Assembly: GCF_000189635.1 (NCBI RefSeq)
Contig: NW_002476417.1
Location: 744,001-808,000, forward strand
From: Tetrahymena thermophila SB210
Taxonomy: Eukaryota > Ciliophora > Oligohymenophorea > Hymenostomatida > Tetrahymenidae
Reading direction: 5' to 3'
DNA: 64,000 nucleotides
The notes below the pieces were generated by a model. The model was not told the DNA's origin. It saw only the letters and a list, made by a program, of their open reading frames with translations, and made no database searches. The position numbers and the translations under genes are program-made. This document shows, in pieces, positions 32 through 61,388 of the stretch (positions are counted from its first letter, which is position 1; the number at the start of each line of letters is the position of its first letter).

Positions 32-3000
32 GGAAACAGAGAGCAGAGCTTGGATAACAGCCACAGAGTAGCAGCGCTTGCATAATTCAGTTTACTCAAA
101 TAAAATCATTTCTGAATAAAATACAAATAAAGTAATTTTATATCATAATTGATAATTAAATAAAGTAGTTCTCTAACAATTAAAACCTAAAAAAATCAAG
201 CTTTATAGTCAAATGTATTACATGAAGCAGCTTATAAAGAAGTTCAAAGCCAAGAAATATTAAAGTATTTATTTTTTTTTATTCATTTTGATCTTAAAAG
301 CATAAATGAATGAAATTATATAAAAGAATTTTAATATTTAAGCAAACTAGAAAGCAAGCAAGCAAGAAAGGATTAATTAATAACTTTTGTTTTTATAAAT
401 AGTTATTAATCCTTGTCAAAAATTTAATAAGCTTAAAATCAAAATACTTGCAATATTTATTTTTTATAGAAAATTAGAAATCCAATTTTTTAATTTGCTC
501 TTATTATGAATACAATCACAACTTGTGTGGAGAATAAGTTTATAAATAATAAAAAACCAATGAATTGTACGTTGATTTATATTTTGAAAGAAATAGAAAA
601 TAATACAAATAGCTTGATACCTAGCAAAAAGAATTCTATGACATGGTATTGTTTATTATTAATATTCTTTTTTATGAATTTACTTATTTATTTATTAAAT
701 TCTATATTCATTCTCATTTACTTATATACTTATTAAACTTTAATTAATTCTTTTATTTAATTACTTATTAACTTTTTTATTCATTCTTCATTCATTTCTT
801 CAGCCATCCATCCATCCATCCATTTATTTATTTAATTTATAATTATTTTTGGTATTTATTTTTTAACTTAATTTAAAAAATAAATAAAAGAACCTTGATT
901 TCTCATTTTTACCAAATGCAATATATAATGATGCTAAAAGAAATTCTCTTTTTAGTGTTAGTTTTATTTATAATGCTGATGATACTTCTTTGATGGCTGG
1001 TAGTCCTTCTTTGTAATTAATTGATTTCATTTATAAAATTAGAAAACAATTTAATAATTTACTAAAAGGATAGATAATTTCTCTGATGCTGAATATTAAA
1101 CTTGCAAAGGAAATAACTACCCAGAACCATACGATCCACGGTGTAGACCTTGGTATATATACTCTCTTTAGCATTTAGGTATTATATTATAGGAAAGATT
1201 AATTTTTAAATTATTAAACAAAAATAAGTTTGATTTTTTTCCAAATTTACAAATAAAACATCATTAGAAACTTTTAATTATTTTTAATTGGTTTATGATA
1301 GCAATTAATTATATAGAGAAATGAATTATTAATAGTTTTGATTATAAAAAACAAATAATTTAAAAATTATAGGTTATAATTTTTATAAGCCCTATGTTGA
1401 TGCAACGAATTTTAAAGTTATAATGACAGTTTCTTCTTAAGTTTAAGATTAGTAAGGAAAATTTATATCTATTTTAAGTATTGATTTTGGTATAGATAAT
1501 CTGATTAATAGTGTGTTCGCACAGTAAGATTAAACAAACTAATAGGCTTTTGATTAATATAATGTTCTTCTCCATGAAGATTAAACTACAGTATTTATTT
1601 ATTTACTTACTTTTGTTTTAGATAGTAATTGGCATATATTTTAATAGGTTTTTTATCATAAATTTTATGATAATAATTCTGGAGTTTTAAAATCATGGGG
1701 AGATATTGAATTCAGTGGGTTATTTAACTATACCAATGATGAAAAAATAAGCTTTTAAAAATAAGTAAATGATTCTATCTAATTTATGAAATCAGGTAAC
1801 TATTCAATTTAGGAATACTAAAATGTTCTACCTCTATTTTAATATTGGACCAGAAACGGACAAAAATAGTAATTAATTAATTTTTACTTGTTAATTCATA
1901 TTATGATTTAAAAATTATCAAGTGAATTCTTCATTAAAAAAATTAATTTCTTAAATAATTAGTGTGAGCTTAATATATCCAATAATAATGAACAATAACC
2001 TCTCTTTAGTGCCAAAATAAGAAAGAGGGACTTTTGCCTTTTCCATTCTCATTGTAGCCAAAGTTTCTAAAGACTATAGAGATTAACTTTAACTTTTTAA
2101 AGTGTTTGACAATAATTAATTGATTATCCCTTTCATAACAGAAGCTGTGCTCTTAGCCTTGTTTATTATAATTTTCTTGTCGCATTACGGAGTTATTTAG
2201 ATTAGGCAAGTATATATTCCTCTGAAACTTTTAATTTAATTTTTAAAAAAGACATTAAATTAGCAGTTACTATCTGCATGCTATCAAAGAAACAACAAAT
2301 AAGATTCAAACTATCAACAAGAGTAACATACAACTCCTAAAGATAAAAATAATCTAAATATTGCTTATAAATAATCAATTTTATAAACAAAAAATATGGC
2401 AAGAAGTGTTTTATAGTATATTGATAGCCCTTAAAAGATGAGAAAGCAAAATAATTTTTAGATGGATTAGCCTCATAAAAAAGTTAAATTAAAATAGGCA
2501 TATCCTTTAAAAAATAATTCAATCAACTAATAAGCTAAAGAAATAATGAGCATTACAGAAAGAGCTGAGAGTAACTTTAATATTAATAACAATATCTTTG
2601 ATGCTTTAAAATTTAATTAAACTTAAATTTTAACTACAAACCATGACGAGGAAACATTTAAATCAAACAAATAACAATTTAATTAAATTAGAAGGAATTT
2701 AATCCAACAAGTTTACGAAATTCCTTGTACCGAAGAATAAAAAAGAATAGAGACAAGTGCTTTACCTTCTCCAACCAATAACAACTGTATGTCTAATCGA
2801 ATAGTCTAAGAAATTCAAGATAGTAATACCTATTAAGGTTTCTAAAATCTGATATAGCAGTAGGAAATACATTTAAGATCAGAGAAAAAAAAATTGACAG
2901 GTGTTATCTTATCAAATCAAAGCGAATTTAGAATTAACTCATAAAGAGAACTAACTTATTTAAATTAATTAAGAAGCTCTTATAATGATAAAAAACAGTC

Positions 3001-4927
3001 TTAATATAAAATTTATGAATCGAAAGAAAGTCCAAATATCAAAAATAGCCCCTTCAGAGATACAAAATCTGAAACATACTCGTTATATAGAAAAAAAGAG
3101 TAAAGTATTCAGTACACATAAGGCTCAGCTGAAAAGTAAGAAGACATGGAGTAAAATATTGGTTAAATTGATCCAATGTTTAAAGAAATGGATATTATTA
3201 AGGAAACATTTGAGCAATTAGAGCAAGTTATTAATTATGCAATCAGTAGCTCTCACAGCCACTCAAGCTTTATTTAAAATCTCCTTCATTTTGCAAATGC
3301 CAAATCAACTTTTCAGAAAATTTCAAACATAAGTGGGCTCAACAGATGCTATTTTAACTTAGGTATACTGAATATTTTAAATGGAAATTATGAATAATCT
3401 ATAGAATAATTAAATGCTTCTATAATTACATCATTGTAAGGAAATTGTATTTACAGCTTAGAAGATTTTGCTCTTTGTTTAGAAAAAGGGTTGATAAATT
3501 ACACTGACGATTAGCTGTTTATTTTTTCAAAAAAGCTTTTTGCTCTTTCTTATGCTCATAAGCAGATTTTACTAACAACACTTATAGACTAGAATCTGTT
3601 TAAATAAACGAAGACAAACGATGAGAAAGCTTTAGCTAATAAGAGCTTAAAATATTTAGAGTTGATAGCAAAGATAATATGGCTGAGACCTAACATTTTT
3701 TAAATTTTATTTAGACTAGTTATTATAGTTGAGTTTGTTGAGTTCAATCTCTTATTGGATCATGTTTAAATAGCTGAGAGTTACTTAGACGAGTTTGATT
3801 ATATTATTCACAATTAAAGTTAATCTTAATAATTGTTCACAATTATCAAGCAAGCTTAAAGAAAGTCTTTATCTCAAAAAAGCTTATAAAGCTTTACAAG
3901 AGAAAAAAGAGCTACTCTTGAGTAAATTTACTTGAATCTGTAATTGTAAAACGAAGACTCTGAAACTCTCATTACCTAAATCACAATAAAATCGCTCTTT
4001 CTACGAGGTTAAATTTCTTTTTATTAAAAGAAATTCAAAGATGCTGGAGAATATTTCACATTATGCATAGAAGAAGGAAAAACATATGAAAGCGAAATAA
4101 GGCACTCTTCACTACTCTTTCTGAAATAAATCTTAGAAGCCCAGAGTTTATATTCACTTGAATTAGATTACATGTTATCTTAAATCAATTAAATGAAACT
4201 TTCATATGATATTATTATCATTTTCGATAACTCTTACACTAACAGCTTTTATATTAAAAACCAAATTACATAAATAAAAAATCTAATAGAAATGGGATAT
4301 TTTAAATAAGAAGACAAAATTATGATATTAAGTTATGGAGAATAACTAAATAACATTTAACACTTTGAATAAATCCGAAGTGCTAGATAGTGGGACATTA
4401 TTTTCCACTAAATCCTTTAAAAAAACGCTAGTTGCTTAGAGTATAAACTGGATGATTTAAGGCCATACTAAGGTTTCAAATTTAATGAAGATAATTCCAA
4501 AATTTTATTATCAGAAGCACTTATATTAGGTTTTGTGCATTCTCAAGAAATTAATTAAATAACAGCAAATTAATATTAAAGTAATATTTTATAAAAGAAT
4601 AGAAGAAAGCAAATAATTTCTTTTTCAATATAGGCTTATGATTAATCAATGTCTTTTTATGATCAGATATTTTCTTAGTAATAAAAGGATTTTATTGAAA
4701 GTAATATTAAAATTAAACCTGATGTGTATCATCTGAATTTGTAAATAGATGGATCATTTGAAGATTATTTTGAACAACCTACTCCAACTACAGTTTCTTA
4801 AAGCTACTAAAACTTTTATTTATATTAAACAGAAAATTAATTTGTACAGTCTCTTTTTAAGTGCAGAGATTAACAAAAAAGTTCATTTCACAGCCTATTC
4901 CTCTCTTTTATTAGCAACTAAGAATGA
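32..4927 (+). CDS. Cache-domain membrane sensor with TPR-like and vWA-like regions, paralog A (5' partial)
   Basis: Spliced, code-6 gene whose first exon lies left of the window. Exons read: 32-131, 201-264, 470-645, 891-999, 1074-1178, 1373-1590, 1648-1868, 1963-4927 (TGA at 4925); phases agree throughout, giving about 1318 visible codons. The extracellular part carries the Cache-like motif EPYDPRCRPWY near 1120-1155. A hydrophobic helix (EAVLLALFIIIFL) lies near 2140-2185, followed by a Q/N-rich linker and a TPR-like helical block near 3230-3800. Near 4207 a vWA-like strand ends in DNSYT, close to the MIDAS form D-x-S-x-S/T. The presumed role is an extracellular ligand sensor with cytoplasmic scaffolding; the ligand is unknown. 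Identification rests on the motif and on two neighbours with the same exon plan. An apparent ORF from 506 is a shadow in the wrong frame of the 470-645 exon. Boundaries between 201 and 470 are the least certain. Confidence 0.8.
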
Positions 4928-10925: not shown

Positions 10926-13900
10926 ATGAAACTAACTCTAAAGTTAATTATTTCTGTGATAATACCTATTTCTATAGGAGTTGTAACAGTAATGATATTT
11001 TATTATAAACTAGTATTTTAAGCTCTCAGCGACTGGTAATTTCAAGTCATTTTTAAAAATAAATATCAATTAACGTCATTATAAAAAAGGGAGAGTATTA
11101 GTACTTAATGGATTATCTAGATATAAAAGCAGAAGCTCCATAATTAAGTGAGTCCAAATAAAATGATAGTAGAGTTAAATTTTCAAAATGTAAAAATTTA
11201 AACAAATATTGAAACATTTAACATCTATTTTTTTTTCTTTTCTTCAATAGATAGCCTTAAATACATTAATAACAGCAGACATACTTAAAAAACAGAGCTC
11301 AAAAATCATAAAAAGTATTTAATTTCAATTTAAATAAATTTATGAATTAATTATTATTAAATTGAAAGATAATCCGAAGGCTCATTACCTTATTTGTTCA
11401 TTTAGATATGCTGATTATGGTTTGTGTGATCCTACTTTCAGTTTATTACAAAATGCTAACGAGTTGTATGTAGATTTATTCTTTCATAGAGTTACTTTTG
11501 AATTAGATAAGATGACTCCGCATGATCAGATGCTTTCATGGATAGTATTTTTATTTGTATTATTTTAAATATATTTAATCATCTTTTATTAGAATTTTAA
11601 CTCAGGATTTTTTCTAAAATCTGTTTACAACACTTACAAAAATAGCTTAATAGACGTAGAACTTTTATACACAGCTGCAAATTCCACCTTAATGTATTTT
11701 GCACCTGCAGTGTAAAATAAATTAAAGATAAATTGTATTAAAGGGTCATGTTTATTTTTACTATTTTATTTATTAGATAGGCAAATTTTTCAGCAGCTAC
11801 ATATTAGACATGTATGGGAAATTCTTACATAGAACCATTTGACCCCAGATGTAGAGGATGGTATAAATCTGCTTTGAAAAATGAAGGTTATTAATTCTTA
11901 CTCAGTATCAAAAATTTATTTTTAACATTATGGAAAATAATTAGGAAAGCTTTACTTTTAATAGCCTTATGTTGATGCTCTAAGTGGCAGTGTTTTGATG
12001 ACTTCCTCTATCGAATTAACACTAAATGATACTACTAAAATGGTCTTTGGAATGGACTTTGGTATTACAAATATGATACAAAATATATTTACTCCCTAAG
12101 ACACTGGTTCAGATGGATACACTGTTATATTTCATCAAAATAATCACACAGTATTTTTTTCTTCTAGATGTATTACTTTATTTATTCATTTATAATAACA
12201 AAAAGATTTTTCACCACAAGCTCTACGATGTTAAAACAGGGCTTTTGCTAAGTTGGGAAGATGTTGAGTTTAATGCTACTAGAGGAGATATCTTCACTCC
12301 TTAACAAAAGACAGAATTTACCAGCTAAGTTAATAATAGTATTTATTTTATAGAGAATGGAAGCTATGATATTCTTAATTTCATAAATGTTGACTCATTC
12401 TATCAAAGATGGGAAAAAGGAGATAATAAATAGTAAATTTTTTATATTTTAATTCAACCATTTTTATTTTTTTAAAATAGTTTTAGTCTCACCTATCCTG
12501 CAACAATTACTATGCCATATAATTTTTAAAATTCTGACTAATTTTCTATAAATATTTTAATGCTTGGGAGAGTTAGTAAAGATATCACTGATTTAATTAA
12601 ATTAGTTAATCTCAACTAAAATCCTTTCTTTTTACTATCAATAATAATAGAAACAATTGTTATGATTTTAATTATTATATTATTTGTCTTGCATTATGGA
12701 GCTCTCCAATACAATTAAGTTGAAATTCCTATAACTATTTTGACTTAGTTTTTGTAACAAAACTACCAAGAGCAGGAATAGAATATAAAATAGGCTTATA
12801 AGGGGGAAGAATCAAAGGCTAATGAAAATAAGTACATTAAAAAAAGTAGATTCTATGTTGAAGTAATCAATTTATTAATTTAATTCACAAATTAAATTTT
12901 AACTATTAATTTTAAATTATAAAAAAGGGTGGTGAAACTACTAAAAAATTTTAAGAATTTAATACTTCATAAAAATTACAATTTGATGATTTATGTGAAA
13001 ATCAATATTCAGACAATCTAACTGATAATTTAAGATCTAGGGTTAATTCTTAATTTTATTTTAATTAATACACGGAAAACTAAAGATCTAGAGTAGATTC
13101 GTAATTCAGGATAAATCAGTATAAAAACGTAGGAAGTGTTAAAGATAGAAATTTATCAAAAAGGTTAGTTCAATAGCCTAACAAAAGTGGATTAAGATTA
13201 AAAAATGACTCATAAGACATAAAAGATAATTATGCAGATATTAAAGAAAGCTTTAATGAATACCTTTCTAATTCAGATACAAGTGTTTTAAAAAAGCAAA
13301 GTAATAAGCTTGAAAGCTAAACCATTAAAGAAAGTCATAAAGTGGAACTGAAAAAAATTGATCCTATGTTCTTGGAGATGTCTATTATCCTTGAAACTTT
13401 TTAAAAATTAGAGAGTGTGATATAATATGCAATCAGCGAGTAAAATAAAGGTTCTGTAGTAAACTCTCTAATGCGCTTTTCAAATGCAAAGAGAACATTT
13501 TCTATGATTTAAAATAATATTGGCCTAGGAATGTGCTACTTTAATATTGCTTAGCTTCATTTGCAGTCAGACAGATATGAAGAAGCTATAGAGAATTTGT
13601 TTGCATCGATTGAATGCACCTTATAAGAAATGAATTTATCTTCTCTTTAGGAGCTAACTTATAAAATATATCAAGGCAATTTAAAATCATAAGTTTACAA
13701 TCTTCGGATATTATCAAAGCGACTACTTGGATTGGCTCTTGTGCTAAAGGAAAGCTACAAAAAAAGAATAAACTACAACTATTACATCTCTTTATCTGAT
13801 GATAAAAGCCAGTTATATGAATCTATTAAATATATTCAAATATGTTTGTAAATTGTTAATGTTACTTACTAAAGCAGAAATCTTTAAAAATATGCTTTGT

Positions 13901-16086
13901 TTGTAGAATTAGCTGAAAATTATCTTTTGATTAATGATTATGATAGCTGCGTATATTATTTGAGTATTTCTGAAGTCTTTATACAAAACAATTAAGATGC
14001 CTTTCCAACTAAGGAAATTAGGAGGACTGCATCTCCAGTCTCCCCTAATACATTTAGGAAAAATTTTAGCGAAGAAAATTAAGCAGATTCAATAATGGAA
14101 GACAGTCAAAATTTATTTAGAACAAATACTTAGCACTCTCCTATTTAACTTGGTAATTACTAAGCTTAAACGAGTAATTTTTAATAGCTTAGTAATTAAT
14201 GCAATTCAGAAAAATAAACTAATAACTCTCTCCCTGACTGCATAAATTATATTAATGTAACCATTTTATAAAGTAAGATTTAATTTATACAAGGTATACT
14301 AACTTGTAAAGAATCTTACTTCTATCTAGGGTCTAGTCTACTATTGCAAACAATAGAAAACTACAGCATCTGTGATCCAACTATAATTTACTCATCCATG
14401 GTATCACTTTAGTAAGTATTTTAAGCAAATGATTTAGATTGTCAAGCATTACAGAATTAGTTGAATTTGATTAAGCTAATTTCTTATTAAGAGAATCAAG
14501 GTAACTAACAAGAGAGTAAATTATCTAATGACAACTAAGGATTAGGCGTAGAAGAAAATGCATGTAAATAATAAGGCGATATACGATTCGATATTGTTGT
14601 TGTCATCAATAATCCTTAAAATTTAAAAACTGAGAATATCTCTACTTAGATTAATTTTTTAAAATATCTGAATCAAAAATTTATAACTCCAAAGAAAGAC
14701 AGAGTTAGTATTATCACTTATAATAGTGTCTTAAAAATAATATAGCCGTTAGTCATTATAGAAAATAAAAAGTAACTCAATTTTTGTATTTATTAGATTA
14801 AAAATGACTATGACAAGCTAATTTATTAGCAATATTCTGGAGTTCTTTAACCAAATTCTAATTAATACTTTATTGATCCTAAAATTGCATTTATAGCAGC
14901 CCTGAATTTTTTCCGCAAAGAAAGAGCTACAAAATATCTAAAGTCATAACAATTAATGTAAAAAGAGTAATAATTAGATATTGTCTTAAATAATCCAGCT
15001 TTTAAAAAATATCTAAAGCTAAAATTATAACCATTAATAGTCTAATTCAAATAAAAACTTTTACAAAAATTAAACTAAGGAAGCTAAATATCAAAAAAAT
15101 AATTAACAGAATCCAACTTGATAAGCCTATAGACAGAATCTGCTGCAAGCTAACCCAATAAATCCTAAAAATTAAAAATGAGTTTCTTTAAATTACCAGA
15201 AAATGAAAATAATTCTTTCTCTTTTTTACATAAAGACAATGAGTAAAATGTATAACAAGAAATTAAATAAAATAAAAATTAATTATAAATCTTAGCAAAT
15301 GATGAATCAAAAGAAATTGAAAAACTTTATAGAAAATAATAAGCTAATTATTAAATTTAACTTTCATATAATTAAGCAAATTACGATAATAATCCAAACA
15401 TAATGAGTAATCTTAAAGATAACTAATAAACTTAGCCATAATTTTAGCAGCTTAAAATTTCTAATTCTCCACATAATCAAAAGTAAAAAAGTTCTTAATT
15501 TGATTATCTGATTGCTTGTTCAAAATAATCTATTTAGGAAATAAGTAAGAAATCTTAAAACTATGACGCATAAAACAATTAAAGTTATAATATTGAAGAA
15601 ACCTTGTTAGAGTCATCTGAGATCTAAAATGATTAAATTAATGAAACATTTATGAACCACTTTGAATAATCTTTATTTAAATCAATAAAAATTTAAAATA
15701 TTAATAAATAAAATTCTTAAAACAAACACCAAAATGAAAAATTTAATCAAGATGCTTCTTAAAAAGATAGAAAATAATTAATTGTCTTCTTTTCATTTAA
15801 TGAATTAAAAGATTCTATGAAAAATTAAATATTTGAGAAGATTTCATTCACAGATGATATAGAAATACTACATTGCTGTATATAGAAATAATCCAACTCT
15901 TAGGAAGCTGAAAACTTTTCAGAACTACTTAAAAGCCATGAAAATAAAATAAACTACAAAAATGTAAACTTGAATTACAAAATATTTTAAGATTTACAAT
16001 CTCTAATAAATCATATATAAAAATTAAAAATATCTAAATTTTACAAATATTAATTACTTTCAAGTTATCTTGGCTAGAGTTTTTGA
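10926..16086 (+). CDS. Cache-domain membrane sensor with TPR-like and degenerate vWA-like regions, paralog B
   Basis: Ten exons read in code 6: 10926-11035, 11090-11189, 11251-11314, 11369-11544, 11593-11709, 11781-11886, 11945-12150, 12206-12432, 12481-12862, 12928-16086; the sum is 4647 nt, 1548 residues, TGA 16084. Order: N-terminal membrane anchor (MKLTLKLIISVIIPISIGVV), extracellular Cache-like domain with EPFDPRCRGWY near 11828-11860, second helix (IIIETIVMILIIILFVLHYG) near 12640-12700, Q/N-rich linker, and a TPR-like block (GLGMCYFNIAQLHLQ) near 13520. A vWA-like strand FDIVVVINNPQN near 14594 has lost the MIDAS serines. Exons 2, 3 and 4 (100, 64, 176 nt) match the paralogs exactly, which fixed the splice sites. 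Donors at 11710 (GTGTAA) and 11887 (GTTATT) are atypical. Its last codons and 3' flank are repeated downstream. Confidence 0.85.
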
Positions 16087-16688
16087 ATGCAAACTAATTT
16101 TATTGTAAGTATATAATAATAAATATTTTATTCTTCAAATGACATATCAATTGTATTGTATAAAAAAACATTATTTATTTTAAAAAAATGTTTTAAAATT
16201 ATTTTGTACAAATTATTTATTTTTTTTTATTTATTCTACTTTATAATAATTCTAGAAATTAAATTCTTGTTTATCTGCATCCACAAAAACCTAACTCTGG
16301 AAATGTTATAATTAACAAAAAATTTTACCTTTAATTACAAAATATTTTAAGATTTACAATCTCTAATAAATCATATATAAAAATTAAAAATATCTAAATT
16401 TTACAAATATTAATTACTTTCAAGTTATCTTGGCTAGAGTTTTTGAATGCAAACTAATTTTATTGTAAGTATATAATAATAAATATTTTATTCCTCAAAT
16501 GACATATCAATTGTATTGTATAAAAAAACATTATTTATTTTAAAAAAATGTTTTAAAATTATTTTGTACAAATTATTTATTTTTTTTTATTTATTCTACT
16601 TTATAACAATTCTAGAAATTAAATTCTTGTTTATCTGCATCCACAAAAACCTAACTCTGGAAATGCTATAATTAACAAAAAAATTTAC
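15973..16688 (+). repeat. Tandem duplication, period 360 bp, of the paralog B 3' end
   Basis: Positions 15973-16328 recur at 16333-16688 with an offset of exactly 360 bp. I count four differences by eye: three T to C (16134/16494, 16247/16607, 16306/16666) and one T to A near 16323/16683. The first copy holds the last 38 codons and 3' UTR of paralog B; the second copy is an orphan 3' fragment. The high identity in such AT-rich noncoding DNA indicates a recent event. Confidence 0.97.
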
Positions 16689-22362: not shown

Positions 22363-22434
22363 AGGTCCTACTGGGATTCGAACCCAGGTCAAGGGATTTA
22401 GAGTCCCCAGTACTAACCGCTATACTATAGAACC
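22363..22434 (-). tRNA. tRNA-Gln (CTA), reads UAG as glutamine
   Basis: The minus strand folds as a cloverleaf: acceptor GGTTCTA with TAGGACC, discriminator T, anticodon loop CTCTAAA giving CTA, and T-arm GGGTTCGAATCCC. A CTA anticodon pairs with UAG. The body matches what I recall of the ciliate glutamine tRNAs, and the window's genes use in-frame TAG freely, so it is called Gln rather than a nonsense suppressor of another amino acid. A T-run follows the 3' end. Identity elements for glutaminyl-tRNA synthetase were not tested. Confidence 0.93.
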
Positions 22435-55234: not shown

Positions 55235-55279
55235 TCCGAACTCCCGGGATCGAACCGGGGACCTACGGATGACTACAAA
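55235..55279 (-). pseudogene. Truncated tRNA-Tyr, 3' half only (copy 1)
   Basis: Only the 3' acceptor, T-arm, anticodon 3' side and part of the intron remain; it breaks after GACTACAAA and runs straight into spacer sequence like that at about 57170-57216. It has the variant bases GGGATCG and CCTACGG shared with the copy at 56967. Apparently a deletion joined half a gene to the next spacer. Confidence 0.9.
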
Positions 55280-55324: not shown

Positions 55325-55408
55325 TCCGAACTCCCGGGTTCGAACCGGGGACCACCGGATGACTACAAACTTTACAGTCCGATGCTCTTCCAACTGAGCT
55401 AAGTTCGG
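55325..55408 (-). tRNA. tRNA-Tyr (GTA), intron-containing (copy 2)
   Basis: 84 nt on the minus strand: acceptor CCGAACT/AGTTCGG, anticodon loop CTGTAAA with GTA, an 11-nt intron at 55361-55371 just 3' of the anticodon, and T-arm CCCGGTTCGAACCCGGG. Discriminator A; a T-run terminator follows. Canonical copy with CTAGACCT upstream at about 55436. Confidence 0.97.
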
Positions 55409-55583
55409 TTCGGTGATATTTTTAATTTTTTTTTCTAGACCTAATTAAACTAACTAATAAAAAACAGATAAAGTTATAGAATATGAAATTTACAATTAAT
55501 ATGAAGAGATTAATTATTATTCGTATTCTAAAAATAAATTAAGTATAAAGATTAAATTATCAATCATTTTATTTTTAAAAAAA

Positions 55584-55667
55584 TCCGAACTCCCGGGTTC
55601 GAACCGGGGACCACCGGATGACTACAAACTTTACAGTCCGATGCTCTTCCAACTGAGCTAAGTTCGG
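55584..55667 (-). tRNA. tRNA-Tyr (GTA), intron-containing (copy 3)
   Basis: Identical in sequence to copy 2 as read, including the 11-nt intron. A CTAGACCT motif lies about 20 bp upstream on the + strand right side, and a T-run terminator follows. Confidence 0.97.
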
Positions 55668-56012
55668 TTCGGTGACTTTTTATACCTAGTGTTCTAGACC
55701 TTTAATATGATATCAAAAATAAAAATGAATCATAATTATAAAGTGAAAAATAAAAAAGCTAATTTAATCAATTTAAAAATACTCAACCTATTTAATTTTC
55801 CTATAAGCTTAAAAATCTATTGATATTTTTAGATGGTAATAATTAGCTAATTAATATCATTTTATTTTTGAATAAATATCTTTTTAACAGAGCTTCTAAA
55901 TAACTCCTAAGATTAGTCTCAAAAAAATATTAAATTAAAGTGCATTTATAAAATTTATTTATTTTTAATTTAATATATCACTTTTCTTTTAAATTATTTT
56001 TAGAAAAAAAAA

Positions 56013-56096
56013 TCCGAACTCCCGGGTTCGAACCGGGGACCACCGGATGACTACAAACTTTACAGTCCGATGCTCTTCCAACTGAGCTAAGTTCGG
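56013..56096 (-). tRNA. tRNA-Tyr (GTA), intron-containing (copy 4)
   Basis: Same 84-nt sequence as copies 2 and 3 with the same intron. The right flank repeats the TTCTAGACCTAATTAAACTAAC block seen beside copy 2. Confidence 0.97.
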
Positions 56097-56261
56097 TTCG
56101 GTGATATTTTCAATTATTTTTTCTAGACCTAATTAAACTAACAAAAAATAAGAGATAAAATTATCAAATGAAAATTATATTGAATATTTAGATTATATTT
56201 AATGTCTTTTATATTAATTAAGAAAATTTCTTTATTGATAAATCATTTTATTTTTAAAAAA

Positions 56262-56344
56262 TCCAAACTCCCGGGTTCGAACCGGGACCTAAGGATGACT
56301 ACAAACTTTACAGTCCGACGCTCTTCCAACTGAGCTAAATTTGG
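56262..56344 (-). pseudogene. Diverged tRNA-Tyr, probably nonfunctional (copy 5)
   Basis: 83 nt. The acceptor is CCAAATT/AGTTTGG: position 3 has changed on both sides, keeping the pair, and position 6 is now a wobble. The anticodon and 11-nt intron are intact, but the 3' anticodon stem reads TCCTT instead of TCCGG, breaking two pairs, and one base is lost between the stems. The right flank is the CCCTGGAGTAATCAAATC type. Confidence 0.85.
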
Positions 56345-56524
56345 TTCAGTGATATTTACAATTTATTATTTTAACCCTGGAGTAATCAAATCAAAATAAT
56401 AAATGTTTTATATTTAATAAGTCGCTGTTTTTAATTGATAGTAAGTAGGTGATACATCTAAGAAAAATAAAAATGATACAATAAATAAAATTTCCATGTT
56501 TTCTTGATTAAAAAATAAAAAAAA

Positions 56525-56608
56525 TCCGAACTCCCGGGTTCGAACCGGGGACCACCGGATGACTACAAACTTTACAGTCCGATGCTCTTCCAACTGAGCT
56601 AAGTTCGG
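56525..56608 (-). tRNA. tRNA-Tyr (GTA), intron-containing (copy 6)
   Basis: Canonical 84-nt sequence with the 11-nt intron and a T-run terminator; CTAGACCT is present in the right flank. Confidence 0.97.
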
Positions 56609-56770
56609 TTCGGTGATATTTTTAAACTATTTTCCTAGACCTTAACTAAATAAAATATTTTATTAGAGATAAAATGTAAAGTTATATGCAATATTTACTC
56701 TACAAAGTATGATATTTAATTTTAAATCTAATAAGCAATTTAATAAATAAATATATAATTTAGTCTTGTC

Positions 56771-56795
56771 ACTCTTCCAGCTGAGCTAAGTTCGG
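56771..56795 (-). pseudogene. Truncated tRNA-Tyr, 5' end only (copy 7)
   Basis: Only the 5' acceptor strand and D-arm remain, in the variant form with CTTCCAGCTGAGC. The right flank is the CCCTGGGGTAATCAAATC type shared with copy 8, showing that spacer and gene were duplicated together before the truncation. Confidence 0.85.
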
Positions 56796-56966
56796 TTAAT
56801 GTTTTGATTTATTATTTTAGCCCTGGGGTAATCAAATCTAATAATAAATATTTTATATTATTCCTATGTTTTTTTTATGATAGATAGTGAGTGAATATTT
56901 AAAGCAGAATAAAATTTATAAAATGGATAAATTATCAAACTAAGCAAAAATTAAATATATAAAAAA

Positions 56967-57050
56967 TCCGAACTCCCGGGATCGAACTGGGGACCTACGG
57001 ATGACTACAAACTTTACAGTCCGACGCTCTTCCAGCTGAGCTAAGTTCGG
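56967..57050 (-). tRNA. tRNA-Tyr (GTA) variant with stem mismatches (copy 8)
   Basis: 84 nt with acceptor, anticodon and intron intact. The T-stem has a mismatch (CCCAG with CCGGG), the T-loop is changed to TTCGATC, and the anticodon stem has a terminal T-T. It may be functional but suboptimal, or an early pseudogene. The right flank is the CCCTGGGG type. Confidence 0.75.
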
Positions 57051-57216
57051 TTAATTGATATTTAAATTTATTATTTTAGCCCTGGGGTAATCAAATCTAA
57101 TAATAAATATTTTATATTATTTATATGTTTTTTTATGATAGATAGTGAGTGAATATTTAAAACAGAATAAAATGAATAAATTATCAAACTAAGTAATTAA
57201 TTAAATATATAAAAAA

Positions 57217-57300
57217 TCCGAACTCCCGGGTTCGAACCGGGGACCACCGGATGACTACAAACTTTACAGTCCGATGCTCTTCCAACTGAGCTAAGTTCGG
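57217..57300 (-). tRNA. tRNA-Tyr (GTA), intron-containing (copy 9)
   Basis: Canonical 84-nt gene body identical to copies 2-4 and 6, with a T-run terminator. It is the first transcribed copy on the right edge of the cluster, and its right flank lacks both the CTAGACCT and the CCCTGGGG blocks. Confidence 0.95.
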
Positions 57301-57384: not shown

Positions 57385-60300
57385 TCAAAATTCACTTAAG
57401 AATGTAAATTCTTCATATCCTTATAGCCTGCTTAAAATTAAATTTTGATATCTTTTAATAATATTAAAAATATATTTTTAAATTAACATTTTTAAAAACT
57501 ATTCTTACTTGATAGAATTTAAATAGATATTAAATTTTTTATCTTTTTTGATAGCCTTTAAATTTAATATTAAATGTTGTACCATCTATTCCGTAAACTT
57601 TGAACTTCTAAATATGGTTATAATATGAAATTAAGATGACGGAAAAAATAAAAAATAATTTACTCTAAAATTATACTAATTTATTCTAGACTTTATTTAA
57701 GTTAGATAAACCCAATTAGATTTTTTAAGGATTCGTCTGACAATTATTTGGAGTTTCTTTTTATTTAAATGAAATAGATATAATGTTTTCCATAATAAGA
57801 ACATTTAAAAATTACCTGAGATTAATTTAAAAAACATTTAGTTATTGCGATTTTAAACTTTAAAGAAAATCATCAAATGAAGCATCTGAAATATTTTCAC
57901 TAAACCTATTAATTATATTTTTAAGTGAATGATTAGAATTTAAGCACTAATTAAATAATTTAATTTTTATAGGTTAAAAATTATTTAATATTTTTTGTTG
58001 GATTAAATTATATATTAATTTTTTTTTAAGTATTTACTCAAAGCTAACAGAAATAGATTCAATTCTCTTAAGTTTTTTAATGGTTGATGCCATTATTTAT
58101 AAAGCTTCGTCACCTAAATTTTCACTGCATCTTAAAATAATCAAATTAATTCGTAAATATTTTTTTAGCTTTAAAAATATTTTTATAAATTTACTTAAAT
58201 CTAATAAAGAATTTATCAAGAAAAGTATTTTTCTTAATGAATTTGAAAAATGTATTCAAAGATGATTCATTTATTTCTGAGCAGCTAATAAAAATGAAAA
58301 ATGAAAAATTAAATCAATTTAAATTATGTATTACTCAAAATCTAATTCTAATTGGTTCAGATGAATATTTTAAGACAAATACTCTCCTAATTATATTATT
58401 ATTTCATTAATGATATTTTTACTTTTACTGATTAAAAATACATAAAAAATTAATATTTTGAAAATATTATTAAAATTTTACCTAAGTAAAAGTTTAAAAG
58501 CAACTAATTGCTTAGTGCTTATGATTGATTTAATTACACTCATGTCTTACCATTATATTTAATTACTTTTCAAAACCATTAATCAATATTTATTTTTTTT
58601 TGAATATTTTACTTAAAATCAAATTCTATATGCTCTAGTTTTTCTTATTTTTATATAGATTAACTTAGCAATTCTAAGCTTTTATTTTCTATATTTGCTG
58701 AACTTTAACTTTAAAAAATAGGAATTTAAATAAAATTTTTAACTTTATAAAATATTTTACTTAAAGTCAAACTCTAAACTTGTTATAGAAGAAAAACATG
58801 TCAGAGAGGAAAATAGCACCTAAAATCCTTTTTCGGCAATATTTTTTGTTTCTCTTTTATTTATTTTTAAGAGATTTGAATAATACTTAAATATTCAGTT
58901 AATACCTGAAGTTCAATTTTAAAGTCTCTAACTCATTTATTTATTAAATTGATTAGCCAAGGTTTATTACGCACTAAGTATTTAAGTTTTAAGACTTCCT
59001 ATTTATTTAAAATAAAATTAAAGATTGAATTGATTTATAAAAATTAATTACTAAAATCCAAAGTTAATATTTCTTAGGCTTTTTATTTTTCCTAAGCAAA
59101 CAAACAGTTCTGAGATTCCAGTTTCAGTGCATTTCTAATTATAACTAATAGAGACTTTTTAATTCAAATTTGAACAAATTTAAATTACTTAAAATCTAAA
59201 AAAAGTGTATTGAGTTCTTGTTAGTTTTGTAAAGCAAGTGATAGTTGAAAGAAACTCTAATCTTCTACGTTGTTGTTATTTCTTATCACATCATATGTAA
59301 ATGGTTAATATAATTTTGTAAAAAATATAAATTTTACGTTAAAATGAGAGTGATACTTTATAACTAATTAATTGACAGAATTGATTTAGCTAGTAACTTG
59401 AATCCTCTCAATGTAATATTTGATTGCCTAAACAAATAAAAATTCGTTTTAATTTCTATTACTTTAAATTTTAATATGTATATATACCCTAACCCTAAAT
59501 ATAGGTTTGTAAGCTTTTGTGATAACTTGATAGCTCTTACTAAATTATAGAGGAAATAGTCGTTTATATTTGGATTGAAGCTATTTAAACATTATTTTTA
59601 ATTAGTCGATTGAAATAAAAAGTAATTTTATTTGAAGATAATTCTAATTTATTTTATTTTACTTAAGAAAAAGACTAAGATTATATAAGGGATAACATTT
59701 AGAAATGGCTTTTGCTAGATCGTTTAGTAAAAAAGCATTGATGGTTCTATTTTATCTATTTATTAATACTTTTTAATAGTATAAAAGCCTAATAAAAATA
59801 AAATACCCTAAACTAAATTGTATATGGCTAATTTTTTCATGTTAAACGATTATATCTTAAATTTATTACTGCAGAGTTAAATCTGATTCCTTTTCATTTC
59901 TTTTTTAAAATAAAATTAATTTTCTTTATATTTTAATAAAAAATATTCTTTACAATTAAAATTCATATTTATAATCATCTTTTTATTCTATTTCCTCAAT
60001 ATGCTTGCTCAATTTTATAGTCTTATTTTTTAAACCTATTTTTTTAGAATTGAAAATATTTAAAAATGATGTTGGTTGCAATCAATTACTTACTATATTT
60101 TGAATAAATTTGTGGTAGCTATATATTTTCACTAATAAAATGATTGGCAAACTCTGAAATATAATCTGCTACAGTCTTTCTCTAGTTTATTGTAGTATCT
60201 ATAATGTCTTAAACTATTTCACATAAAAAGCAGTTATACTCATGTTTGAGCTTTTTAGGAATTTTCCCTTTAATCAAAGATGAATACAATTAATCCTCAT

Positions 60301-61388
60301 TATCTATAAAGCTTTGTAAGTAGAACTAAGGATTATCAATAATAATAAATATCAATGCCACACTAATTAAATCATCCTTTTGATTTTTAAAAGGAAAATA
60401 TATATTTGGTCAAGATAAAACATATTAAAATAAATCAAAAATATTAGAAATTTGCAAAAAAAAAATACCTAATGCGATCTATGTGATTTGGATAAACTTA
60501 GTTAACTTTCCTTTATATTAAATAAGATATTTTATTATTTTATTTTCTAAAAAATTTACCACACTTATCAAAAAATTAGAATTTAAGTCTTAAGGAATAA
60601 AACCTAAGTAACCTTTTATTATATTTTTATTAATTAATTAAGAATTTAACTTCTAATATTTCAACACATTTTATTTATAATTAAAACATAAATGTTTCTA
60701 ATGGAGGATATTTATTTATTTACCTAATTTAATGCTATTATTCTTAAGAAATACTTTAGTTATATCTAAGTTTCCATACTATATTTAATTTTGATGTAGC
60801 GTATTCAAAGCATCTAACAATTAAACTGCATACTATAATTTTTAATGCTTGTAGTTGTTTAGCATTTTAGTACTATCAATTATAAATCCAAGTGTATCTG
60901 TTAAGAAAAATATAAAAACTTTATCAAAATTCAATTAGGAATTAAAATAAAATTGAGAATCCAATAAAATATTTCAATAAATAACTCAGTTGTTTACCTT
61001 GGCAGAACTCTAATTAAATTGCATAGAATTTACCATGATCATTTTCTAAAATAGTACAAGAGAATATTTACACTAAATAGGGTTATTTGTTTTAAAATAT
61101 TTTTTGTATTTAATTAGATGATTCATTTATTTGTTTTTAATCAACATCTTAAAAAGGCATAACTTTTAAAACTACTTTCTAAAGAATTTGTTTGTTAAAC
61201 CCAGTAAAAGTAAGACTATTTTCATTTCGACACTAAAATTCAATATCAATCATCGAAAACTATTCTTGAGCCTATTTTATTATGTCCATAATTATTGAAT
61301 CATTACTGTCAATAATACTAGGAAATTATATTTAAAATTTATCTGCTTGATACTCTTCTAATCTCTGTCTATTGCAACAACCACCCAT
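57385..61388 (-). CDS. Pseudokinase (CK1-like) fused to leucine-rich repeats, 22 exons
   Basis: Minus strand, code 6, 2628 nt, 875 residues. Kinase exons: 61388-60998, 60897-60724, 60612-60560, 60510-60469, 60376-60094; linker 60035-59954. LRR exons: 59899-59807, 59755-59663, 59580-59488, 59427-59338, 59281-59189, 59144-59052, 58998-58906, 58853-58761, 58708-58613, 58565-58482, 58427-58335, 58284-58195, 58130-58038, 57905-57816, 57756-57664; last 57607-57385. N-terminus MGGCCNRQ suits myristoylation/palmitoylation. The domain keeps a beta3-like lysine (VVLKVMPF) and a CK1-like HRSHQDDLISVA, but HRD-LKPEN is replaced by YGNLDITKV and DFG by YLG, so catalysis is unlikely. Each of 15 exons of 84-96 nt encodes one repeat (for example NIENKSLELLSQSIQKQEKL). 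Kinase-LRR fusions are known in Tetrahymena; the ligand is unknown. Ending the gene at TGA 59996 after the kinase is possible without the 60093 donor, but consistent phases favour one gene. Confidence 0.82.

Follow-up and report, generated by a model that had tools for sequence, protein, structure and literature searches.

A gene predicted on the minus strand of the window (the whole 64,000-nucleotide stretch of Tetrahymena thermophila SB210 DNA analyzed here), running from position 61388 to position 57385, is very probably an old, intact-looking relative of the Tetrahymena leucine-rich repeat (LRR) genes that carry one intron per repeat, fused to a degenerate kinase domain. The exon-per-repeat, phase-2 layout of the gene is already published (Xiong et al. 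2019, PLoS Biol, PMC6564038); what is new is the 93-bp mode of its repeat exons, together with an intronless relative of the same architecture. The class is known, and the gene is an old variant of it with a 93-bp unit.

Gene model

Under the ciliate code (code 6), the predicted gene is one open reading of 871 residues in 21 exons, with TAA in frame 49 times, TAG in frame 18 times and TGA at its end only, as in that code. The parts of the gene, with the basis of each assignment or a remark on it, are as follows.

60998..61388, minus strand: exon 1, MGGCC start, kinase-like N-lobe, VVLK lysine (K75); acylation site predicted from the MGGCC start
60560..60897, minus strand: exon 2, kinase-like hinge, helix E, catalytic loop YGN (N173), no aspartate in the DFG region; alternative donors exist
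60094..60376, minus strand: exon 3, remaining kinase-like C-lobe, weakly supported; hhalign match stops at residue 189
59954..60035, minus strand: exon 4, charged linker, followed by the first phase-2 intron; alternative starts exist
59807..59899, minus strand: LRR exon 1, 93 bp, weakest LRR, perhaps a cap; gene model, fails the profile test
59663..59755, minus strand: LRR exon 2, 93 bp; gene model and LRR profile
59488..59580, minus strand: LRR exon 3, 93 bp; gene model and LRR profile
59338..59427, minus strand: LRR exon 4, 90 bp; gene model and LRR profile
59189..59281, minus strand: LRR exon 5, 93 bp; gene model and LRR profile
59052..59144, minus strand: LRR exon 6, 93 bp; gene model and LRR profile
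58906..58998, minus strand: LRR exon 7, 93 bp; gene model and LRR profile
58761..58853, minus strand: LRR exon 8, 93 bp; gene model and LRR profile
58613..58708, minus strand: LRR exon 9, 96 bp; gene model and LRR profile
58482..58565, minus strand: LRR exon 10, 84 bp; gene model, outside the profile scoring
58335..58427, minus strand: LRR exon 11, 93 bp; gene model and LRR profile
58195..58284, minus strand: LRR exon 12, 90 bp; gene model and LRR profile
58038..58130, minus strand: LRR exon 13, 93 bp; gene model and LRR profile
57816..57905, minus strand: LRR exon 14, 90 bp, unit one residue short; gene model, fails the profile test
57664..57756, minus strand: LRR exon 15, 93 bp; gene model and LRR profile
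57509..57607, minus strand: LRR-like exon 16, 99 bp, phase 2 on both sides; gene model, without a signature match and outside the profile scoring
57385..57427, minus strand: terminal exon, TGA stop; gene model

A sequence-only reading of the locus had listed 15 consecutive repeat exons (93, 93, 93, 90, 93, 93, 93, 93, 96, 84, 93, 90, 93, 90 and 93 bp), and these lengths proved exact, the exons lying between 59899 and 57664 on the minus strand. Its statements that the exons are symmetric and that the introns fall at one place in the repeat hold as well: all 15 have AG and GTA borders, are open under code 6 and are phase 2 on both sides, and in 15 of the 16 repeat exons of our model the end falls on the LxxLxLx(L/F) strand, the codon at the junction being split. 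An exon begins immediately behind one LxxLxLx(F/L) strand and extends through the following one, so that the junction codon is split and the LRR exons are frame-neutral. Plant LRR receptor kinases and brown-algal LRR-ROCO genes also have a symmetric exon per LRR, with 24-residue repeats, in other lineages.

Beyond the earlier list, the model holds a sixteenth phase-2 exon (99 bp, 57607-57509) and a last exon of 43 bp (57427-57385) that ends in TGA. The first three introns are in phase 1, 0 and 1, and the 17 that follow, from the one between exons 4 and 5 (just before the first repeat exon) through the one between exons 20 and 21, are all in phase 2, with lengths of 44-132 bp (median 54 bp). 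In 16 of 16 exons the G+C content is higher than in the intron on either side. The exon borders of the kinase-like part are less sure, ten open models having been found, from which we chose the one with the most typical-looking donors; the LRR part of the model is independent of this choice.

Chance expectation and LRR identity

The exon chain was evaluated by searching for successive open phase-2 exons of 78-102 bp that end in the LRR strand signature. The longest such chain comprises 15 exons in the gene, compared with at most one in 300 dinucleotide shuffles and at most one in 44 other segments of the window, and the same search on the opposite strand of the gene gave none. When the signature was dropped from the search, the longest chain was 16 in the gene and at most six in 60 shuffles. 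A 15-exon chain by chance is excluded.

Because the signature was taken from the gene's own exons, a second test leaves it out and uses an LRR profile built from other genes of the genome, restricted to the first 18 of 26 unit positions, which lie outside the signature. With units 10 and 16 omitted from scoring, 12 of the 14 scored units did better than 95% of their shuffled versions, and the summed score was higher than in all 2,000 shuffles; the two failures were unit 1 (207 of 1000 shuffles as good) and unit 14 (735 of 1000), which is one residue short. A profile made from 14 near-identical young 90-bp repeats did not place the gene's repeats above shuffles; that profile is narrow, and the broader set from other genes was used for this reason. 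A Pfam search with the whole protein returned no kinase or LRR family, and one with a 249-residue stretch returned no LRR family (PF13516 and kin), so that the LRR nature of the repeats is drawn from the genome's own LRR profile in place of a curated Pfam match. A search of the PDB with the spliced protein gave no match at E up to 0.1.

The kinase-like part

The sequence-only reading had called the N-terminal part a pseudokinase, and this is borne out to the extent that profile methods support kinase homology over approximately residues 58-189, at a level that Pfam places below threshold. Searched alone, the first 338 residues match PF00069 with an E value of 6.8e-5 and 22.8 bits, under the curated cut-off of 31.7, and hhalign gives a probability of 89 for residues 58-189, where ten shuffles reached no more than 1.4 and an LRR stretch 0.5. 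The outcome of scoring against kinase profiles of the same genome varied with the composition of the profile. Using 27 ordinary kinases, the kinase part ranks first, only 0.3 bit over the best shuffle; using 30 kinases (the same 27 plus three kinase-LRR relatives), it ranks first against 2,000 shuffles (22.4 versus 9.1 bits); and using the three fused relatives alone, it comes second, behind one shuffle (2.0 versus 5.6 bits). A search of the genome at E up to 0.001 yielded no paralogue of the kinase part.

The lysine of the VAIK motif is kept (K75), the aspartate of the HRD motif is aligned to an asparagine (N173), and no aspartate occurs between D175 and D234, where the DFG motif should lie; the alignments stop before that motif. 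Given the replacement of the HRD aspartate and the lack of an aspartate in the DFG region, the kinase-like part is likely to be a pseudokinase, as judged from these residues.

Relatives in the same genome

That the kinase-like and LRR parts form one gene and not two, as had been read from the sequence, is supported by three relatives (L045, L069 and L070) that carry both parts in single uninterrupted open reading frames (ORFs). L045 (contig C53) has an MGC start, a kinase domain (Pfam, 65 bits) in which the HRD aspartate is replaced by asparagine, and about seven repeats that end in LxLxF, with spacings of 31, 31, 31, 31, 30 and 31 residues. It is like the window gene in its start, in its altered kinase and in its 31-residue repeats ending LxLxF, and differs in its uninterrupted ORF. 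L069 has a repeat spacing of 30 (eight of eight) and, by eye, a catalytic loop HNN; L070 has spacings of 28, 30 and 30 and, also by eye, a catalytic loop HSD and NYG in the place of DFG. A fourth relative, L075 (contig C31), combines kinase-like fragments with a subsequent array of 12 phase-2 exons, each exactly 90 bp long, and introns of 50-138 bp (a thirteenth exon in its chain is probably spurious); it shares with the window gene the order of a kinase-like part and then a short-intron phase-2 array, but its exons are all 90 bp. These four genes together show that the kinase and LRR parts belong together, and that the fusion is found both with and without introns.

The genome thus holds a kinase-like LRR family with altered HRD or DFG motifs, seen in L045, L069 and L070 as single ORFs and in L075 with 12 exons; additional kinase-only matches of L045 on contigs C308, C134, C65 and C228 may be more members. 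Other candidates fell away on inspection. A kinase near a young LRR array on contig C355 (L067) is, by eye, an EF-hand-like kinase that ends before the LRR exons, and the loci on C112 and C258 (L073 and L074) are long uninterrupted LRR ORFs and not exon arrays; C67:41500-43300 (L076) holds no exon array.

Among genes with exon-per-repeat arrays, L066 (C79:44800-50000) is young, with 15 exons of exactly 90 bp in 347-bp units and introns of 239-258 bp except for one of 157 bp, the commonest length being 257 bp (six of 14); its 347-bp units and 257-bp introns are the values that the main text of PMC6564038 gives for T. thermophila. L068 has seven exons of 90 bp, and in L077 all six exons are 90 bp. 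L066, L068, L075, L077 and the window gene all have phase-2 junctions that split a codon at the LxxLxLx(L/F) strand.

The repeat units of the window gene were compared with those of 25 LRR genes, a small sample of a family put at 1,874 genes in T. thermophila in the main text of PMC6564038. The nearest single gene at the unit level is the intronless L045, which scores 22.8, the second-placed gene scoring 19.2, on the basis of 12 of the 16 units. The class averages of the unit profile are 8.87 for 90-bp array genes, 7.54 for 30-residue intronless genes and 4.39 for 31-residue intronless genes. On these scores the sequence affinity of the units is mixed, the class averages favouring the 90-bp arrays and the 30-residue intronless genes and the single nearest gene being L045.

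Comparison with published 90-bp arrays

According to its main text, PMC6564038 reports about 72,000 exons whose length is exactly 90 bp; most lie in LRR genes, more than 96% are flanked by phase 2 introns, and some arrays are fused to protein kinase domains. The definition of an array there requires three or more successive exons, each exactly 90 bp long. Genes of the older group II have at least one 90-bp exon, are not masked by young consensus repeats and have introns near 56 bp, their arrays having arisen by duplication of exon-intron units and then aged; genes of group III have repeat units at the DNA level and long introns, whose lengths in T. thermophila peak mainly at about 257 bp. The exon-per-repeat LRR genes of Tetrahymena are held to descend from one or a few 90-bp exons.

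The window gene shares with the 90-bp-exon genes of groups II and III, as the main text describes them, the exon per LRR, phase 2, the splice position (in 15 of 16 exons, as in canonical arrays) and the kinase fusion, and all 17 of its introns from exon 4 onward have the phase of the published arrays. It differs from them in that its exons are mostly 93 bp (ten of 15), giving 31-residue units. Only LRR exons 4, 12 and 14 are 90 bp, and none of these are adjacent, which leaves the gene outside the strict array definition of the main text; it is laid out alike and probably shares the origin of the arrays. With regard to group II, the gene has three 90-bp exons, a median intron of 54 bp and hardly any internal DNA similarity; those of group III (DNA-level units and long introns) are absent from it. 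In its low internal similarity and short introns it would fit the older group II as the main text of PMC6564038 draws it.

The frequency of 93-bp exons elsewhere in the genome was estimated from a pattern that covers the 3' end of the exon and the donor only, which gave 463 matches compared with 117 for a reversed control. From the matches listed (contigs C1 to C67), 21 regions were taken by eye, preferring sequences unlike young repeats; these were L075, L076, L077 and 18 others, 15 of which held chains of at least two exons by an automatic procedure that may admit some false exons. The 62 exons sampled comprise 45 of 90 bp, three of 93, five of 87, three of 84 and six of other lengths. The share of 93-bp exons is therefore ten of 15 in the window gene (with three of 15 at 90 bp) versus three of 62 in the sample (Fisher p 6e-7). 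Among intronless LRR relatives a spacing of 31 is the commonest in 11 of 15, in a sample that leans that way, most having been fetched with the repeats of the window gene itself. By eye, the 31-residue units, set beside the 30-residue units, carry their extra residue in the loop that directly follows the splice junction. In a search of the literature that covered titles and the openings of abstracts, PMC6564038 was the only paper found to describe such LRR exons or a ciliate kinase-LRR family.

Chromosomal setting and other features of the window

The contig of the window, 819,503 bases long, has repeats of the CCCCAA type on the left and GGGGTT repeats on the right at its two ends and on this account looks like a complete macronuclear chromosome, with the pseudokinase-LRR gene 14-18 kb from the right end; L070 (C130:8300-10300) lies about 8 kb from the opposite end of the same chromosome. 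Taken in 4-kb segments, the G+C content of the window is 18-26%.

A tandem cluster of seven tRNA genes, each 83-84 nt long, occupies 55325-57300 on the minus strand, ending just downstream of the gene (five copies identical, two at 90-93%), with partial copies at 55235-55279 and 56772-56795; ARAGORN leaves them unnamed with anticodon gtaa, and they are probably tRNA-Tyr genes with an intron. Another tRNA at 22363-22434, with anticodon CUA and an ARAGORN call of Pyl, is presumably, in a code 6 genome, a glutamine tRNA reading UAG. Two long ORFs, 1907-4927 and 12862-16086, are paralogous to each other (34% over 221 residues, E 5e-25), and the ORF 19277-22003 matches the former (24% over 201 residues, E 6e-9) and not the latter directly. 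A recent tandem duplication relates 15945-16328 to 16307-16688, with 97% identity over 384 bases.

Origin and present state of the repeat array

We compared the repeats of the gene with each other at the DNA level. The 120 exon pairs have a median identity of 0.555 versus 0.538 for shuffled sequences, one pair exceeding the best of 360 shuffled pairs, and the 105 intron pairs have a median of 0.576 versus 0.552, five exceeding the best of 315; in contrast, the medians in the young array L066 are 0.85 for exons and 0.89 for introns. Since both exons and introns are barely above shuffles, little homology is left to drive unequal crossing-over, and the suggestion of the sequence-only reading that repeats may still be gained and lost finds no support in these comparisons. 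The symmetry on which that suggestion was built is itself real: deleting exons 5-20 singly in silico leaves the frame intact through to the TGA in 16 of 16 cases, and removal of exon 2, 3 or 4 breaks it. Skipping of single LRR exons would, judging by the predicted reading frame, leave the frame intact. Seven introns have a length that is a multiple of three, and six of these contain no in-frame TGA, so that their retention would also be translatable.

The most likely history is that an ancestral unit of one exon plus a phase 2 intron was duplicated in tandem and that the present layout would be its remnant; the unit in this gene is mostly 31 residues (93 bp), one above the usual 30 (90 bp). 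After the duplication the repeats would have diverged to near chance-level DNA identity, with introns of the short size usual in this genome. From the divergence of the repeats and the shortness of the introns, we infer that the array is now probably static. The protein would probably be a catalytically dead kinase scaffold, membrane-anchored if the MGGCC start is acylated as predicted, and its LRR solenoid would bind a ligand or partner.

A different history, in which introns were gained repeat by repeat in a once-intronless, L045-like gene through a favoured insertion site in the repeated motif, could account for the finding that L045, with the same architecture and a 31-residue period, is the nearest unit-level relative of 25; the predominance of the 31-residue spacing in intronless relatives (in the leaning sample given above) agrees with it, as does the low mutual similarity of the introns. 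It would nevertheless demand about 17 parallel gains at one spot, which is less economical than duplication, at a position and in a phase equal to those of the 90-bp arrays, in which L066 shows unit duplication at the DNA level; moreover, the class averages of the units are nearest to the 90-bp arrays and then to the 30-residue intronless genes, not to the 31-residue intronless ones. We consider repeat-by-repeat gain improbable.

Duplication followed by divergence must also be weighed against a locus still active in exon shuffling or variable in splicing, whose repeat number would differ between strains or transcripts. The 16 singly skippable LRR exons and the six introns translatable if retained would permit this, and repeat number varies between genes of the family according to the main text of PMC6564038; however, there is little exon or intron similarity for unequal crossing-over, and the terms exon skipping, alternative splicing and isoform are absent from that main text. 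Such a locus seems distinctly improbable to us. We think it very improbable indeed that the gene is decaying or is a chance string of splice-like sites: the sub-threshold Pfam results, the failure of two of 14 units in the LRR profile and the lost catalytic residues are what decay or chance would give, but these have to be set against a chain of 15 exons versus at most one in shuffles, 871 open codons, an LRR profile kept in 12 of 14 units and a G+C contrast present in 16 of 16 exons.

Tandem duplication of an exon-intron unit with subsequent divergence is accordingly the reading we prefer. It is conceivable, if rather unlikely, that the window gene represents a separate 31-residue, 93-bp lineage of intron-per-repeat LRR genes and that about 17 introns were gained or lost wholesale between it and its paralogue L045. 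Should such arrays of 93-bp exons be older than the 90-bp clone, the published account, which starts from one or a few 90-bp exons, would have to be revised. For the turnover question, the expectation is of exons that are frame-neutral with no sign of present turnover. The window gene and the intronless L045 make a gene pair in which it can be asked whether the introns of these repeat genes multiplied together with the repeats or were lost, for example by copying through RNA.
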